A stretch of DNA of 64,000 bases from Mesorhizobium sp. 65-26 (GTDB taxonomy: Bacteria > Pseudomonadota > Alphaproteobacteria > Rhizobiales > Rhizobiaceae): positions 96,691 to 160,690 of the forward strand of contig MKVL01000001.1 of NCBI GenBank assembly GCA_001899205.1. Reading direction: 5' to 3'. The translations under genes and the position numbers were made by a program. Positions 4,461 to 27,091 of this stretch are shown piece after piece. Each line of letters opens with the position of its first letter. The stretch's first letter is position 1. Below the pieces are notes generated by a model. That model was not told where the DNA came from. It did no database searches and saw only the letters and a list, made by a program, of their open reading frames with translations.

Positions 4461-4539
4461 CCGTTCCGCCGAGGCGGATCAGAACGTCCACTGGACGTTC
4501 TGAAGGGTTCGAACGCCCGGAGCTATAGCGAAGGGCAGG
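4461..4539. repeat. About 80-bp tandem repeat, copy 1, with perfect hairpin
   Basis: The unit starts CCGTTCCGCCGAGGCGG and ends near AGCGAAGGGCAGG. Inside it, positions 4480-4502 form a perfect 11-bp inverted repeat (CAGAACGTCCA, one-base loop, TGGACGTTCTG). It lies between the convergent ends of rlmE and the MFS gene, a good site for a transcription-ending or 3'-end-protecting structure. Confidence 0.8.
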
Positions 4540-4545
4540 GCCTGG

Positions 4546-4625
4546 CCGTTCCGCCGAAGGCGGACCAGAACGTCAGGTGGACGTTCTGAAGGGTTCGAAC
4601 GCCCGGAGCCTTAGCGGAGGGCAGG
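4546..4625. repeat. About 80-bp tandem repeat, copy 2
   Basis: This is an imperfect direct copy of the preceding unit. Its hairpin at 4566-4588 keeps 9-bp arms (CAGAACGTC / GACGTTCTG) although the loop differs from copy 1, so the stem is the conserved part. The copy ends 14 bases before the stop codon of the minus-strand MFS gene. Confidence 0.8.
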
Positions 4626-4638
4626 CTTCACGGAACGC

Positions 4639-6060
4639 CTACTTCCCGGGCGTGCTGACGGTTTCCAGCGTCTTGGGCGTCGCCAGCCTGCCATGGCCGG
4701 ACACAGCGCTGCCGGCATCCGGCGCGAGCCGCAGGAATGTCAGCGATGCCGTCGCCGAGACCGCCGCGACGATGAAGAAGGCGGTGTGGAAATCGCTCAG
4801 CGTCAGCGGCCCGCCATGCACGGCGGTCGACACTTCCAGTATGCCGCCCGCAAGCGACACGCCGAGCGCGATCGACAGTTGCTGGAACACGGCGGTGATC
4901 GGCGTCGCCTTGCTGGTGTCGGCGGGCGCGATATCGGCGTAGGAGAGAGCGTTGACGCCGGTGAAGAACATCGACCGGATGAAGCCGCCGACCAGCAGGA
5001 TCGAGAGCATCAGCACATAAGGGGTCTGCGGCGTGAAGAAGCCGTAGATGGCGATCGAGCCGGCGGCGACGAGCGAGCCCGAGATCAGGACCCGGCGGAA
5101 GCCGACGAGACGGAAGATCAGGGCGGTGACGAATTTCATGCCGATGGCGCCGATCGCCGAGACGAAGGTGATCATGCCGGACTGGAAGGGCGTCAGCCCG
5201 AAGCCGATCTGAAACATCAGCGGCAGCAGGAAGGGCACCGCGCCGATGCCGATGCGAAACAGCGAACCGCCGAGAACGGAGGAGCGGAACACCTGATTGC
5301 GGAACAGATCGAGCGCCAGCAGCGGGTTGGCGGCGCGCCGCGCATGCAAAAGGTAGAGCACGCCGCAGACGATGCCGGTCGCCACCGTGATGAAGCCGAC
5401 CATTGGTGGCAGGGCTGGCAGGCTGACCACGGAGAGACCGAAGACGACGCCGGATGCCGCGAGCCCGCTCAGCAGGAAGCCGGGCACGTCGAGCGGCGGG
5501 GTCTCGATGGATTCCGTCTCAGGCAGAAAGCGCGTCGCGAGCCAGATGCCGATGAGGCCGATCGGCACGTTGATGAGGAAGATCCAGTGCCAGGTGAAAT
5601 AGGTGGTGATGAAGCCGCCGATCGGCGGCCCGACCAGTGGTCCGACGAGGGCCGGCACGGTGAGCCAGGACATTGCCGCGACGAGGTCGCTCTTGGGCGT
5701 CGCCCGCACCAGCACCAGGCGCCCGACCGGCGTCATCATGGCGCCGCCCATGCCCTGCAGGAAGCGGGATATGACGAAGGCCGTCAACGAATTGGAGAAG
5801 GCGCAGGCCACAGATCCCGCGATGAAGACGGCGATTGCCGCGCGAAACACGTTCTTGGCGCCAAACCGGTCGGCCATCCAGCCGCTGATCGGAATGAAAA
5901 TCGCCAACGAGACCAGATAGGCCGTCAGCGCCAGCTTCAGCGCGATCGGGCTGGTATGGATATCGACGGCGATCGCCGGCAGCGACGTCGCGATCACGGT
6001 CGAATCCATGTTCTCCATGAAAAGAGCGACCGCCAGGATGAGCGGAATGATGCGGTTCAA
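4639..6060 (-). CDS. MFS multidrug efflux transporter, DHA2 (14-TM) type
   Basis: This 473-aa inner-membrane protein matches the EmrB/QacA drug:H+ antiporter family. The conserved DHA2 motif D1 is at the N-terminus (LFMENMDSTVIATSLPAIA, residues 14-32). Motif A is GWMADRFGAKN near residues 60-70, and motif C is seen in the LVGPLVGPPIGG segment near residue 138. Length suits 14 membrane segments. The start codon is TTG at 6060; the N-terminal residues it gives belong to the conserved first helix, so a later ATG is less likely. There is no adjacent EmrA-type membrane-fusion gene or TetR regulator, so the substrate cannot be guessed. Confidence 0.88.
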   Translation of the reverse strand: MNRIIPLILAVALFMENMDSTVIATSLPAIAVDIHTSPIALKLALTAYLVSLAIFIPISGWMADRFGAKNVFRAAIAVFIAGSVACAFSNSLTAFVISRFLQGMGGAMMTPVGRLVLVRATPKSDLVAAMSWLTVPALVGPLVGPPIGGFITTYFTWHWIFLINVPIGLIGIWLATRFLPETESIETPPLDVPGFLLSGLAASGVVFGLSVVSLPALPPMVGFITVATGIVCGVLYLLHARRAANPLLALDLFRNQVFRSSVLGGSLFRIGIGAVPFLLPLMFQIGFGLTPFQSGMITFVSAIGAIGMKFVTALIFRLVGFRRVLISGSLVAAGSIAIYGFFTPQTPYVLMLSILLVGGFIRSMFFTGVNALSYADIAPADTSKATPITAVFQQLSIALGVSLAGGILEVSTAVHGGPLTLSDFHTAFFIVAAVSATASLTFLRLAPDAGSAVSGHGRLATPKTLETVSTPGK

Positions 6061-6357
6061 GGAAAACGCCCTGTTTGGTCTTCGCGATTCGGAACCAGGC
6101 TTGGGGGCGAGCCGGCAGGAGGCGCGGTTATCACGCCTAGGCCCAAAAGTCGCATTAAATCCCTGTCACGTTTGTGCGAGCGGCAACTGCTGGTAGCATC
6201 TTTCTCCCAAAGCCCCATAGTTTGTGGCTGCGACGCAAGGATCGGCTTTTCATTGCCGGCGGGACGTGGTACCAGCCACCGCCAATCCTGAAAGGGAAGA
6301 ACGAGTCGGCGCTGTCCATTCCGGTCCAGCGCTTTTTCCGTATTCAAAGGGCTGGCC
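6061..6357. other. Divergent promoter region, MFS / guaB
   Basis: This 297-bp gap separates two genes that start in opposite directions, so it must carry two promoters. The part near 6130-6220 is less GC-rich than the rest. I see no riboswitch; in particular, no purine or guanidine riboswitch core is recognisable ahead of guaB. Confidence 0.35.
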
Positions 6358-7860
6358 ATGGCAAAAATCATCGAAACGTCCACCGGCGCGCTGGCGCTGA
6401 CCTTCGACGACGTGCTGCTTCAGCCCGGTCATTCCGAGGTCATGCCCGGCCAGACCGACATCCGCGCGCGCATCGCCGGCGACATCGACCTCAACGTGCC
6501 GATCCTGTCGGCGGCAATGGATACCGTCACCGAGGCCCGCCTCGCCATCGCCATGGCCCAGGCCGGCGGCATCGGCGTCATTCATCGTAATTTCTCGCCG
6601 GCCGAGCAGGCCGAGCAGGTGCGGCAGGTGAAGAAGTTCGAATCCGGCATGGTCGTCAATCCGGTCACCATCGGCCCCGACGCCACGCTCGCCGACGCCC
6701 TGTCACTGATGCGCATCAACGGCATATCGGGCATTCCGGTGGTCGAGAATGGCGGCACCGGCGGCCACAAGGTCGGCCGGCTGGTCGGCATCCTCACCAA
6801 TCGCGACGTGCGCTTTGCTTCGGATCCCGCGCAGAAGGTCTATGAGTTGATGACCCGTGAGAACCTCATCACGGTCAAGGAGAATGTCGACCAGGACGAG
6901 GCCAAGCGGCTCCTGCACCAGCACCGCATCGAAAAGCTCGTCGTCGTCGACAAGAAGGGCAACTGCGTCGGCCTGATCACGGTCAAGGACATCGAGAAGT
7001 CGCAGCTCAACCCGCACGCCACCAAGGACGCGCAGGGCCGCCTGCGCGCGGCGGCGGCCACCAGCGTCGGCGACGACGGTTTCGAGCGTGCCGAACGGCT
7101 GATCGATGCGGGCGTCGACCTGCTGGTGATCGATACCGCGCATGGCCACTCGCAGCGCGTGCTGGACGCGGTGACGCGGGCCAAGAAGCTCTCGAATTCG
7201 GTGCGTATCCTGGCCGGCAACGTCGCGACCGCCGAAGGCACCCAGGCGTTGATCGACGCGGGCGCCGATGCCGTCAAGGTCGGCATCGGGCCGGGCTCGA
7301 TCTGCACGACGCGAATCGTTGCCGGTGTCGGCGTGCCGCAGCTTTCGGCCATCATGTCGGCGGTGGAGACCGCGCACAAATCCGGCGCTTCGGTGATTGC
7401 CGACGGCGGCATCAAATATTCCGGCGATCTCGCCAAGGCGCTCGCCGCCGGCGCCAGCGCCGCGATGATCGGCTCGCTGCTGGCCGGAACCGACGAGAGC
7501 CCGGGCGAGGTTTACCTGCATCAGGGCCGCTCGTTCAAGGCTTACCGGGGCATGGGTTCGGTCGGCGCGATGGCGCGCGGCTCGGCCGATCGCTACTTCC
7601 AGGCCGAGGTTCGCGACACGCTGAAACTCGTTCCGGAAGGCATCGAAGGGCAGGTTCCCTACAAAGGACCTGTGTCTGGTGTGCTTCACCAGCTTGCGGG
7701 CGGCCTGAAAGCCGCTATGGGTTATGTTGGCGCGCGCGATCTTGCTGACTTCCGCGAGCGTGCCACCTTTGTGCGCATATCCAACGCCGGACTTCGTGAA
7801 AGCCACGCCCATGACGTCACGATTACCCGCGAAAGCCCGAACTATCCCGGCGGAGTCTGA
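6358..7860 (+). CDS. guaB: IMP dehydrogenase
   Basis: The 500-aa enzyme oxidises IMP to XMP with NAD+, the committed step of guanine nucleotide synthesis. It starts [11 protein letters not shown], the family's conserved N-terminus. Two CBS domains interrupt the TIM barrel at about residues 97-220. The catalytic loop [13 protein letters not shown] carries the nucleophile Cys316, and the flap and active-site residues follow in [10 protein letters not shown]. Length equals the usual bacterial enzyme. The start ATG is the first in frame and begins just before conserved sequence. The next gene begins close to or overlapping its end. Confidence 0.98.
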
Positions 7861-24302: not shown

Positions 24303-25496
24303 ATGACCACGCCAGTTTCGCCGGAGCGCGATACCCGTATCGATGTCTTCCGGGCACTTGCTCTGCTGACGATCTACATCGACCACGTGCCGGGCACTGC
24401 GTACGAATATCTGACCTACAGGAATTTTGGCTTTTCCGACGCGGCTGAAGCCTTTGTACTGATCTCAGGAATATCGGTTGCTCTTGCCTATGGCACCAGG
24501 TTCCAGCCTGGGGGCCGCCTGCTGTCGACGCTGAAGATGTGGCGTCGCGCCGGCGTCCTCTATGTTTCCCACATCGTCACGACGATGGCCGTCCTGGCTA
24601 TCTTCTGCGCCGCCGCGGTCTTTGCCAAACGGCCGGAGCTGGCGAATTTCATTAATATGGAACCGCTGATGCGGAACACGCCGGAGACGCTGATCGGCAT
24701 CGTCCTGCTCGGGCACCAGCTCGGCTACAACAACATCCTGCCGGTCTATTCCGTGCTACTGCTCATCGCGCCGATGTTCCTCCTCCTGCTCAGCGCAAAC
24801 ATCTGGTTGGGCCTCTCCGTTTCCGCGGCCCTGTGGTTCCTCGCCGGCCTCTACCAGGTCGCCCCGCCGAATTATCCGGAGCCGGGGTTCTGGTTCCTCA
24901 ATCCGCTTTCCTGGCAATTCCTGTTCAACATCGGCCTCGCGGGCATGCTTTATGTGCGCCGAGGCGGCACCATCCCGATCAACCGCTGGCTGGTCGGCGC
25001 AGCAGCGGTTTATGTCATCGGCGCGCTGATCTGGCTGCGCACGCCGCTGTGGGGACAGGTGTCGTGGTTCGGACTGCCGGTGGTGCTGGGAGGCTTCGAC
25101 AAGACATTCCTGTCGCTGCCGAGGCTCGTGCATATCCTGGCCGTCTGCTACCTGGTGATCGCCATCCCGGCAATCTCGAACGTCTTCCGCACTGCGACCG
25201 ACCATCCGCTGGCCATACTTGGCAAGCGTTCGCTGCCGGTCTTCATCGCCGGCACGGTGATCGCGATGGCGGCGCAGGTAATGAAGCAGATCAATCCCGG
25301 TGGCTTCACCTATGACAGCCTTCTCATCGCCGCCGGCATCGCCATGCAGTTCGCGCTCGCCTACTACCTTGAGTGGCTTGCCATCATGGGGTGGAGCGGG
25401 AAGGGAAAGCCGGTGCGCAAGATCCGGCCTGTGGAGGCTCAGGCGGTCAAGCCTTCGCTGGGCACGATCCCGCTGTTGACCGGCGCGGGGCGTTAG
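24303..25496 (+). CDS. OpgC-domain membrane acyltransferase
   Basis: This 397-aa polytopic membrane protein belongs to the OpgC family. It begins with a short cytoplasmic tail and the conserved TRIDVFRALALLTIYIDHVPGT segment, whose Arg, Asp and His are family hallmarks, then AEAFVLISGISVALAYG. About ten hydrophobic segments follow. OpgC proteins add succinyl groups to periplasmic glucans (osmoregulated or cyclic glucans). No OpgG/OpgH or cyclic glucan synthase gene is nearby, so the polymer must be made elsewhere. The 205-bp gap upstream is AT-rich and fits divergent promoters with the esterase gene. Confidence 0.9.
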   Translation: MTTPVSPERDTRIDVFRALALLTIYIDHVPGTAYEYLTYRNFGFSDAAEAFVLISGISVALAYGTRFQPGGRLLSTLKMWRRAGVLYVSHIVTTMAVLAIFCAAAVFAKRPELANFINMEPLMRNTPETLIGIVLLGHQLGYNNILPVYSVLLLIAPMFLLLLSANIWLGLSVSAALWFLAGLYQVAPPNYPEPGFWFLNPLSWQFLFNIGLAGMLYVRRGGTIPINRWLVGAAAVYVIGALIWLRTPLWGQVSWFGLPVVLGGFDKTFLSLPRLVHILAVCYLVIAIPAISNVFRTATDHPLAILGKRSLPVFIAGTVIAMAAQVMKQINPGGFTYDSLLIAAGIAMQFALAYYLEWLAIMGWSGKGKPVRKIRPVEAQAVKPSLGTIPLLTGAGR

Positions 25497-25524: not shown

Positions 25525-26604
25525 TTATCCGGCCCGCGGGGCCTCGGAAGACGCCCTGACGATCAGATCGACGCCGAGTGTCTCGCGGCGAACCTGCCCG
25601 TCGAAATCGAGGATCGTCCTTGCCGCACGCCGGCCGATCTCGGCAATCGGCTGGGCGATCGTCGTGAGCGGCGGGCGCGACAGCGCCGCTTCGGGCACGC
25701 CGTCGAAACCGACCACCGAAACGTCGCCTGGGACATCGAGGCCGCGCTCGCGCAGCCAGTCCAGGGCGACCAGCGCCATGCGATCGGACATGGCGAGGAT
25801 CGCCGTCGGCGGCGTCGGGGTCGCGAAGATCGTCTCGAGGCCGGCCCTGGTGGTGATCTCGTCATTGGCGGTCTCGAAGACCGGGATGGTGGCCGTATCG
25901 ACACCGTGCCGCGACAGTTCATCGAAATAGCCGGCAAGGCGATCCCGCGTGCCTGTATAGACCGCCGCCTTGACCTGCTCCTCCGAGACGAGGCCGGTGC
26001 TCTCGTCGGCGAACTGCAGGGCCAGCACGGCGAAGCGGCGATGACCGAGGACTGCCAGATGGCGCGCGGCGAGCTTCGCGCCCGCTACGTTGTCGACGCC
26101 AATGGCCGAGACCGTTTCGTCGCGAAATCCCAGTTCGAGCGCCACGAAAGGCAGCCTGCGCTCGCGCGTCAGTTCGACGAGGCGAAAGCCGCCTTCGATG
26201 CAGAACAGGATGAAACCGTCGACCAGCGCGCTCTGGATGTTCCAGGCGAGCTTTTCCTCATTGCCCGCCGAGACCAGCGCGATGCCGGCGCCGGTGGCGT
26301 CACAGGCCTCGGAGATGCCGGCCATCATCGCGCGGGCGAAAGGGTCCTCGAAGAAATAGGAGAGGGGCTCTGTCGTGGCGACGCCGATGGCATTGACCTT
26401 GCCGGCGCGCAGGAGACGCCCTTTCGGGTCGGGGCCTGCGTAGCCGAGGGCTTCCGCGACCGCGCGCACGCGCTCACGGACTTCCTCGCGCACGATCTCA
26501 GGGCGGGCGAAGACGTTGGAAGCGGTGCCGTGCGAAACCCCGGCCGCCTTGGCGATATCGGCCAGCCTCACCGGCCGTGTCTTCCCCTCGATTGAAAGCG
26601 CCAT
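25525..26604 (-). CDS. LacI family transcriptional regulator
   Basis: This 359-aa repressor has an N-terminal LacI helix-turn-helix (VRLADIAKAAGVSHGTASNVFARPEIVREEVRERV, residues about 12-46) and a hinge. A sugar-binding-protein-like ligand domain follows from about residue 65, with the typical DGFILFCIEGGF and SVVGFDGVPEAALSRPPLTT segments. In the recognition helix the usual TVSRVLN is TASNVFA. I chose ATG 26604; an upstream ATG adds ten residues. It is divergent from two micro-ORFs. A 14-bp ATCGAT-centred operator lies 36 bp from its start, pointing to autoregulation. No sugar transporter or catabolic gene is adjacent, so the inducer cannot be guessed. Confidence 0.92.
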   Translation of the reverse strand: MALSIEGKTRPVRLADIAKAAGVSHGTASNVFARPEIVREEVRERVRAVAEALGYAGPDPKGRLLRAGKVNAIGVATTEPLSYFFEDPFARAMMAGISEACDATGAGIALVSAGNEEKLAWNIQSALVDGFILFCIEGGFRLVELTRERRLPFVALELGFRDETVSAIGVDNVAGAKLAARHLAVLGHRRFAVLALQFADESTGLVSEEQVKAAVYTGTRDRLAGYFDELSRHGVDTATIPVFETANDEITTRAGLETIFATPTPPTAILAMSDRMALVALDWLRERGLDVPGDVSVVGFDGVPEAALSRPPLTTIAQPIAEIGRRAARTILDFDGQVRRETLGVDLIVRASSEAPRAG

Positions 26605-26639
26605 TCCATATCCTCCGGGCCTTTCAGGTAGCATCTTCC

Positions 26640-26653
26640 TTGGATCGATTCAA
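26640..26653. promoter_or_regulatory. Putative LacI operator O1
   Basis: The sequence is TTGGATCGATTCAA, a near-palindrome centred on ATCGAT, the CG-centred type bound by LacI-family proteins. It is 36 bp from the lacI-type gene start and 50 bp, centre to centre, from O2, which holds the same sequence in reverse orientation. It probably mediates autorepression. Confidence 0.75.
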
Positions 26654-26661
26654 ATTTTTGC

Positions 26662-26690
26662 TTGATCGCAAGTGCGGGTCCGATTAGGAT
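26662..26690 (+). promoter_or_regulatory. Candidate sigma-70 promoter for micro-ORF 1
   Basis: A -35 box TTGATC (26662-26667) and a -10 box TAGGAT (26685-26690) are separated by 17 bp. O2 begins at the last base of the -10 box and so covers the expected start point, which would give simple repression. Confidence 0.55.
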
Positions 26691-26703
26691 TGAATCGATC
26701 CAA
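26690..26703. promoter_or_regulatory. Putative LacI operator O2
   Basis: The sequence is TTGAATCGATCCAA, the exact reverse complement of O1. It overlaps the end of the candidate -10 box and the expected transcription start of micro-ORF 1, 33 bp upstream of that ORF's start codon. Confidence 0.75.
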
Positions 26704-26736
26704 TTTCAGGGATCGTATTCGAGCAAGGAGGGAGCC

Positions 26737-26880
26737 ATGCATCCCGTCAACTTTCTGTTCGAGGATATTTATCGCAGCGACTGGGCCATCCGATCGCAGG
26801 CGAAGACCGAGGCCAGGCGGGGCCGGCATGGCCCCTGGGCGCGCGACCCACGCCTGCTTGTGGAGCGCAAGCGCGCCTGA
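26737..26880 (+). CDS. LacI-associated micro-ORF 1, 47 aa
   Basis: The 47-aa product starts MHPVNFLFEDIYRSDW and ends in a polar, Arg-rich tail (EARRGRHGPWARDPRLLVERKRA). The start codon is preceded by AAGGAGG at ideal spacing, the strongest ribosome binding site in the area, which supports translation. The first 13 residues match those of the next ORF at 12 positions, while the tails diverge. It has no signal peptide or membrane helix. Function unknown. The candidate promoter and O2 directly upstream suggest control by the divergent LacI-type repressor. Confidence 0.75.
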   Translation: MHPVNFLFEDIYRSDWAIRSQAKTEARRGRHGPWARDPRLLVERKRA

Positions 26881-26895
26881 GCGGGCGCCGTTTTT
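26871..26895 (+). terminator. Possible terminator of micro-ORF 1
   Basis: A GC-rich stem (GCGCGCC / GGGCGC, loop TGAGC) overlaps the stop codon and is followed by CGTTTTT. The pairing contains one bulge, so this is a moderate call. If real, the two micro-ORFs are separate transcription units, which fits the operator in front of each. Confidence 0.4.
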
Positions 26896-26907
26896 CGCGT
26901 CTTGGGA

Positions 26908-26921
26908 TTGGATCGATTCAA
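26908..26921. promoter_or_regulatory. Putative LacI operator O3
   Basis: The sequence is TTGGATCGATTCAA, identical in sequence and orientation to O1. It lies 20 bp upstream of micro-ORF 2. Having its own operator suggests that the second micro-ORF is separately controlled by the same repressor. Confidence 0.72.
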
Positions 26922-26941
26922 AGCATATCACGAGGTCTGTC

Positions 26942-27091
26942 ATGCATCCCGTTGGCTTTCTGTTCGAAGACATCTATCGCAACTACTGGGGCATCTCGCC
27001 CGCCACCGAAAATCCGGAGGCGAGGCGGCTGAGGAAGCCGGCCTTGCGCGAACGCGAATTCCTTGCCCGTCGCGAACGGCGGAGAGGCTGA
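26942..27091 (+). CDS. LacI-associated micro-ORF 2, 49 aa
   Basis: This 49-aa paralogue of the preceding ORF starts MHPVGFLFEDIYRNYW and ends with a strongly basic tail (RKPALREREFLARRERRRG). The conserved N-terminal block and synonymous changes (gaggatatttatcgc versus gaagacatctatcgc) show that it has been kept as a protein, not just as DNA. A GAGG sequence lies 8-11 bases before the ATG. No signal peptide or helix is seen. Function is unknown; control by the LacI-type repressor through O3 is inferred. Confidence 0.72.
   Translation: MHPVGFLFEDIYRNYWGISPATENPEARRLRKPALREREFLARRERRRG

Follow-up and report, generated by a model that had tools for sequence, protein, structure and literature searches.

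The window analysed here is a stretch of 64,000 nucleotides (nt) from Mesorhizobium sp. 65-26 (GenBank assembly GCA_001899205.1, contig MKVL01000001.1, positions 96,691–160,690, forward strand; whole genome 6.84 Mb). At window positions 25,525–27,091 it carries a lacI-type repressor gene facing two divergent micro-open reading frames (micro-ORFs), together with three exact copies of the 14-mer TTGRATCGATYCAA (Table 1). LacI repressors are textbook switches of sugar genes; in this case, the comparison of related genomes indicates that a LacI-microprotein module is real and conserved. Re-examination of the sequence bore out all the coordinates given by the initial annotation for the 14-mers and for both micro-ORFs, as well as the perfect AAGGAGG site before ORF 1 and the identity of 12 of 13 residues at the beginning of the two products, which also have W16 in common. 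The start of lacI, previously placed at 26634, had to be corrected to the likelier ATG at 26604, which is preceded by GGAGG. The consensus of the microproteins reads MHPVxFLFEDIYRxxWG, followed by a basic tail.

Table 1. Features of the lacI-microprotein locus (window positions; aa, amino acids; pI, isoelectric point)
Feature	Position	Strand	Basis and remarks
lacI-type repressor gene, likely 359 aa	25525..26604	-	Pfam; ORF open up to 26634; ATG at 26604 after GGAGG
Operator O1, TTGGATCGATTCAA	26640..26653		Overlaps putative lacI -35 (TTGAAT, - strand); exact match, alignment of relatives
Candidate micro-ORF promoter	26662..26690	+	-35 at 26662-26667, 17-nt spacer, -10 at 26685-26690; sequence and consensus of relatives
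Operator O2, TTGAATCGATCCAA	26690..26703		Covers expected transcription start; exact match, alignment of relatives
Shine-Dalgarno AAGGAGG of ORF 1	26725..26731	+	Sequence
Microprotein 1 (ORF 1), 47 aa, MHPVNFLFEDIYRSDW...	26737..26880	+	19% Arg, pI 11.2; dN/dS
Terminator-like stem-loop and T run over ORF 1 stop codon	26873..26898	+	Weak
Operator O3, TTGGATCGATTCAA	26908..26921		20 bases before ORF 2 start (begins 34 before)
Microprotein 2 (ORF 2), 49 aa, MHPVGFLFEDIYRNYWG...	26942..27091	+	22% Arg, pI 11.1; paralogue of ORF 1

On the evidence of comparative alignments, ORF 1 and ORF 2 are real genes under purifying selection, because selection acts in their reading frame and their family is conserved. 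The relatives used for this purpose, hereafter the named loci, are the best 80 of 91 from a scan with a 14-member alignment, and their titles read Mesorhizobium in 79 cases and 'Rhizobiales bacterium' in one. The pooled pairwise ratio of nonsynonymous to synonymous substitution rates (dN/dS) was 0.26 for ORF 1 overall, 0.087 in its core (residues 2–19) and 0.43 in its tail (74 distinct sequences), and 0.31, 0.126 and 0.45, respectively, for ORF 2 (64 distinct sequences, excluding a clade having LFQD in place of LFED), core dN being biased low since the named loci were found via a peptide pattern inside the core. Out-of-frame controls on the same alignments gave 1.07 and 1.53 for ORF 1 and 1.23 and 1.29 for ORF 2. 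The initial annotation had made its reading depend on amino-acid conservation of the micro-ORFs in related genomes, and such conservation was found in both the low in-frame dN/dS and the maintenance of the family. A relaxed pattern recognises an intact ORF 1 in 76 of the 80 named loci and an intact ORF 2 in 75; stricter patterns that miss the LFQD clade recover two micro-ORFs in 58 or 63 of them. Such in-frame codon constraint, with a protein family conserved across genera, stands against the idea that the RNA itself is the active product, as a non-coding or dual-function transcript. A short transcript whose terminator-like stem covers the stop codon of ORF 1 would suit this idea, and the stem-loop (one found versus 0.5 expected by shuffling) is partly conserved in relatives, but the sole Rfam match (E 0.97, 13.6 bits versus a 50-bit threshold) led us to reject a known RNA element, and we regard an RNA product as very unlikely.

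The family is largely a matter of the genus. A profile search (E ≤ 0.001) detected it in 135 of 146 Mesorhizobium-genus genomes, and a single-sequence search in the wider family gave matches in 13 of 199 genomes, two of which (G168 and G152) were dropped for having neither an exact operator nor a LacI orthologue. Beyond the family, searches of the order (12/397 genomes) and of the class (2/289, own genome included) yielded only weak matches; three weak profile matches (G369, G567 and G1021) were discarded, two of them having internal stops. No Pfam or NCBIfam model matches either microprotein up to E 1, and no second micro-ORF copy was found elsewhere in the own genome, where the seven further matches all have E values of 0.2 or worse.

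The divergent gene had been called a LacI-type regulator, and Pfam agrees (LacI helix-turn-helix (HTH) domain PF00356, 8.4e-11; ligand-binding-type domain Peripla_BP_3, PF13377, 4.7e-32). The nearest solved structure is 3h5t, labelled a LacI-family regulator. Orthologues (E ≤ 1e-80, one per genome) occur in 37 of 394 family genomes and in 16 of 109 genera. The pairing first noticed in the window recurs in relatives, with a divergent LacI in 80/80 named loci and two to four exact operators in each (three in 66, two in 12 and four in 2). Among the 146 genus genomes, 135 have both LacI and micro-ORFs, ten have neither, one (G781) has LacI only and none has micro-ORFs only. The ten genomes devoid of both measure 3.3–5.4 Mb, with a single exception at 6.6 Mb. 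In G781, neither operator nor micro-ORF lies within 700 bases of lacI, and the sequence following lacI resembles, as judged by eye, the DUF423 gene. At the level of gene content, this joint keeping and loss shows coupling and not mechanism, because one deletion can remove linked genes together.

The 14-mer did not occur in any of 100 dinucleotide shuffles of the window, and a chance origin of its repeats was rejected. A genome-wide scan, which the initial annotation had proposed, found no fourth exact copy in 6.84 Mb and three one-mismatch sites outside the locus. In an intergenic alignment of 73 of the 80 named loci plus the window, the conserved blocks between lacI and ORF 1 are O1, a promoter-like CTTGAC-N17-TATnTT and O2, and the O1–O2 spacing is 47–50 among the named loci listed. 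The candidate promoter TTGATC-N17-TAGGAT proposed earlier is present in the window and its last base, at the -10 end, is the first base of O2; a consensus scanner did not call it (0 found), and relatives carry the sharper form at the same place. On the other strand, a conserved block (26626–26639) leads us to infer a lacI promoter whose -35 would be the TTGAAT of O1. Many relatives have an additional operator, exact or with one mismatch, starting 26–37 bases ahead of ORF 1, so the operator-leader-ORF unit has probably been duplicated.

Whether this LacI reads these sites was approached through its orthologues. At least two palindromes are found upstream of the gene in 37/37 orthologues (115 altogether), with an O1–O2 spacing of 46–51 in 35 of them. 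These operators are CG-centred palindromes, and their bases vary together with residues of the HTH and the hinge, apart from an exception in G584 and a near tie with residue 128, both described below. NT-2, the second base counted from the centre, is either T or C, the C-type half-site being AACCGGTT. Where LacI residue 35 is K (10 genomes), NT-2 is 100% C throughout; where it is Q (8 genomes), C accounts for 17–50%, and for 50% in the one genome with R; where it is H (18 genomes), C accounts for 0–25% in 17. When LacI columns with at most three gaps were ranked by how well they explain NT-2, residue 76 came first (adjusted 0.88), residue 35 second (0.821) and residue 25 ninth (0.76). We take residues 76, 35 and 25 to be AA-55, AA-15 and AA-5 of the LacI/PurR numbering, a mapping that requires a one-residue insertion in this LacI, visible in the alignment to 5ysz. 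Camas et al. 2010 correlate NT-2 with AA-55, AA-15 and AA-5, in that order (PMC2978694).

Several observations weaken this link. The O1–O2 spacing deviates in G736 and G584, and G584 has H35 yet an all-C operator (100%); its LacI also differs at residues 76 and 25. Residue 128, in the ligand domain, ranks third (adjusted 0.819) and, without adjustment, even beats residue 35 (0.854 versus 0.836), and five further non-DNA-binding columns occupy ranks 4–8. Given this near tie, shared ancestry explains much of the covariation signal in the alignments, and we have lowered our confidence that LacI controls the micro-ORFs, which nevertheless stays high.

The gene that faces the orthologous LacI is not the same in all lineages. 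Among the 37 orthologues, three classes can be distinguished: the MHPV microprotein (class A, 18 genomes), a protein of 55–97 aa that mostly carries YLFKDLYxDRWG close to its start and, farther on, AWSFTIP or a near variant (class B, 7 genomes), and a DUF1127-type protein of 87–102 aa (class C, 10 genomes). Of the ten class C proteins, the four that were scanned match PF06568 without exception, two of them above the curated cut-off and two below it; the other six were assigned by alignment. Profile comparison with hhalign links class A to class B (95.2%, E 2.6e-8). When 118 loci, including some that cover the same place twice, were scanned in six frames, the class B profile recovered its own members and then, at E 4e-4 or weaker, segments of class A, the class C profile recovered class C loci only, and no class A or B gene was found beside a class C gene. 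The operator layout under a class C LacI is usually the same as in Mesorhizobium. On the LacI tree, the partner classes need three changes, which is the minimum, and class A forms one side of a branch that is weakly supported (72/29). The product was exchanged one or more times, in one direction or the other, and the repressor and the layout persisted.

This swap bears on the idea that the microprotein binds LacI itself, as an anti-repressor or co-repressor. Its tight co-inheritance with LacI and the way partner classes track LacI clades would fit such a feedback, but if a LacI surface were recognised, replacement by a protein with no detectable homology would be odd, and we hold this idea to be unlikely. 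A role comparable to that of DUF1127 proteins, acting in trans, is suggested by the same slot under an orthologous LacI, the small size and the arginine richness. According to PMC12501420, DUF1127 proteins have a mean of 14% arginine; PhoR, a sensor kinase, is a binding partner of those from Agrobacterium tumefaciens and Escherichia coli, and CcaF1, also of this family, binds RNA. Other results speak against this likeness. Neither micro-ORF has a DUF1127 (PF06568) match in Pfam up to E 1, and hhalign gives 0.7% for the microproteins and 0.1% for class B versus class C. Two further points count against the reading as a whole: structure prediction returned no confident fold for the microproteins (mean predicted local distance difference test, pLDDT, 59.3 and 58.5), and the LacI of G147 and of G584 face small ORFs that resisted classification. 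Homology between microproteins and DUF1127, suggested by a common 'E-x-I-Y', was rejected on the profile comparison, and the DUF1127 analogy rests on position and composition. We regard a DUF1127-like role of the microproteins as evenly balanced. Elsewhere than at the module, the own genome has five DUF1127 genes above the Pfam cut-off, as well as a single weak match (E 2.9e-4) to the profile of class C.

Three side observations concern these partner loci. In one genome (G147, L193), the unclassed small ORF lies between lacI (5700–6800) and a phoU gene (4469–5272), on the phoU strand, a neighbour worth mentioning given the reported action of DUF1127 proteins on PhoR. The class C locus of G174 (L197, 6194–8194) adjoins a histidine kinase gene and a putative response-regulator gene. 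Finally, the class B proteins of one genus (L186, L187, L188) have an extra tail ending KFLAIAKALSRNC beyond AWSFTIP.

The one-mismatch sites modify the view of a 'self-contained' module put forward by the initial annotation: at the level of exact sites the locus does stand alone, whereas a one-mismatch site precedes an unlinked MFS permease gene. A regulon exclusive to the lacI/micro-ORF locus was accordingly dropped once these sites had been examined. In the own genome, the site TTGAATCGATCTAA lies 38 bases ahead of this MFS gene (C32:175578-175591; L210:1494), a second lies 12 bases before a different MFS gene and the third within an aldehyde dehydrogenase gene. Of 31 genus genomes, 28 have 5–9 exact or one-mismatch sites, about three of which belong to the module, compared with 0–2 when the pattern is reversed; the remaining G831, G893 and G839, which have 0 or 1 site, are without the LacI orthologue. 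Site lists are complete for 11 genus genomes, the own genome included, and 10 of these carry the site upstream of the gene orthologous to the first MFS gene, as TTGAATCGATCTAA or, in G816, as an exact TTGAATCGATCCAA (loci L238–L246 and L257 for the permease-site genomes); G845, incompletely listed, has one as well. The flanks of the site, CTTGACT before and AATTTGCCGC after, are identical in 11/11 aligned upstream regions and sequence farther out is unconserved; as these regions were chosen for site presence, the flanks alone count as independent evidence. We infer that TTGACT-N16-TAATTT is a promoter containing the operator, with the C-to-T mismatch within its -10. By Pfam the permease is MFS_1, and the nearest NCBIfam models are all distant, far below cut-off.

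Control of this unlinked permease by LacI, within Mesorhizobium, is likely on these sequence grounds. Two genomes count against it: G839, which lacks a LacI orthologue (E ≤ 1e-80), keeps the permease site, its permease gene being in two pieces, and G835 has the micro-ORFs and lacks the site. Because of G839, another LacI could be the one that uses the permease site. The same loose pairing, with a site without LacI or micro-ORF in one genome and micro-ORFs without the site in the other, speaks against the microprotein binding the co-regulated permease or another carrier in order to tune uptake, and so does the presence of DUF1127 in the same place in sister lineages. SgrT, which tunes PtsG, is a model for such an action, and a tiny protein under a sugar-type repressor, with the same operator before a permease gene, would fit it well; all in all we consider a transporter partner rather unlikely.

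Further operator-like sites were seen apart from this permease. At the second MFS gene, the one-mismatch site TTGGATCGATTCAT lies over the start codon in seven genomes (L247–L253); this protein matches NF037955 above cut-off, its nearest named model is 3-phenylpropionate, below cut-off, and from its site the gene may or may not belong to the regulon. Six more listed one-mismatch places lie outside the module, one with the word of the second MFS gene and three with that of the aldehyde dehydrogenase. LacI paralogues, 28–32% identical and each with a single TTGGATCGATCCAA site (L130, L132, L133, L136–L140, L143 and L144), were set aside; this word is a similar operator in a different LacI group. 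Sites located within genes, for instance aldehyde dehydrogenase, were put aside as well. Near-operator sites also occur in several genus genomes between ThuA and Gfo/Idh/MocA genes (L255, L256, L263) and beside another LacI and a solute-binding protein gene (L258–L260, L267), and probably belong to other LacI regulons.

The surroundings of the module are stable within Mesorhizobium. An OpgC_C membrane protein gene (window 24303–25496), convergent with lacI, lies upstream in 77/80 Mesorhizobium loci, a DUF423 gene lies downstream of the micro-ORFs on the opposite strand in 77/80, and an MFS gene that comes closest to MdtG among the NCBIfam models, below cut-off, is retained in 76/80. The earlier statement that no sugar genes are near holds for these adjacent genes and may have to be qualified by the unlinked MFS permease gene with its conserved site. 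The ten flanking genes in six other genomes revealed no common pathway. A leader peptide or attenuator of a downstream gene, one of the roles first suggested for the micro-ORFs, would accord with their small size and with a DUF1127 gene of Sinorhizobium meliloti that is attenuated by an upstream ORF (PMC12218461); it is hardly credible, since the downstream DUF423 gene is on the opposite strand and the downstream gene varies in the other genomes examined. In G067 (L201, 4270–4971), unlike in Mesorhizobium, the microprotein gene is followed in the same orientation by a gene for a DUF2270 membrane protein. Tiny basic proteins in tandem next to a regulator might also recall a toxin-antitoxin pair or the cargo of a mobile element, a possibility that the retained chromosomal neighbours make remote. 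No plasmid match was found for LacI (E ≤ 1e-60), no phage match for ORF 1 and no viral-contig relative for the family, and a phage or plasmid origin was rejected on these empty searches.

Taken together, the comparative evidence supports the ORFs, their selection, the operators, the regulator-operator link, the permease site and the gene swap, and the best reading of the microproteins remains one that the initial annotation had listed, namely RNA- or protein-binding regulators or partners of something encoded elsewhere. Repression, effector, target and function may then be pictured as follows. Between its own gene and the divergent small gene, LacI would bind two to four palindromes of nearly identical sequence: O1 at the lacI -35 region, O2 at the point where transcription of the small gene starts, and further copies in the micro-ORF leaders; in Mesorhizobium, it would very probably bind one more copy in the promoter of the unlinked MFS permease. 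A small molecule, probably a sugar- or nucleoside-like metabolite, would release LacI, upon which the permease and one or two arginine-rich microproteins would be made. The latter would act in trans as protein- or RNA-binding adaptors, in a role comparable to that of DUF1127 proteins. We lean towards this metabolite switch, which releases a transporter together with trans-acting microproteins, with a restrained confidence that was reduced because the permease adds a live rival. A bolder version, which we consider doubtful, would make MHPV/YLFKDLY a new arginine-rich adaptor family with no sequence kinship to DUF1127 and yet interchangeable with it, a metabolite-sensing LacI co-inducing a permease and an adaptor that retunes a PhoR-like kinase or RNA turnover to the new nutrient. 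If it were true, the conserved thing would be the slot under the repressor and the operator grammar, not its occupant.

A LacI with conserved microproteins as its closest targets, swapped in sister lineages, offers a handle on the function of arginine-rich small proteins, and an experimental one, as loss of lacI should make the microprotein constitutive. Besides, work on the recognition code of LacI proteins gains a natural data set in the 37 orthologues and their 115 sites, and a microprotein family outside Pfam and NCBIfam is present in most genomes of a symbiotically important genus.

No report of a LacI-microprotein module was found in the open-licence PubMed Central (PMC) literature, among the matches listed, and for DUF1127 and LacI together the listing there gave one paper, on a CRISPR system. 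According to the survey PMC4052901, nearly 90% of surveyed LacI regulators are local, for sugar utilisation pathways. The module resembles such local, autoregulated regulators (PMC4052901) in its HTH and periplasmic-binding-type domains, its CG-centred palindromes, its divergent target, its probable autoregulation and the probable transporter gene in its regulon; it departs from them in having microproteins as divergent targets and an unlinked candidate transporter. With DUF1127 proteins (PF06568), such as the A. tumefaciens SDPs, E. coli YjiS and Rhodobacter CcaF1 as presented in PMC12501420, the microproteins have in common a small size, arginine richness and the same slot under LacI. Unlike them, they match neither the DUF1127 profile nor the class C alignment and are built around the core FLFEDIYRxxWG. 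Finally, they recall SgrT-type small regulators, in being tiny proteins that would, as proposed here, be made on a metabolic signal.

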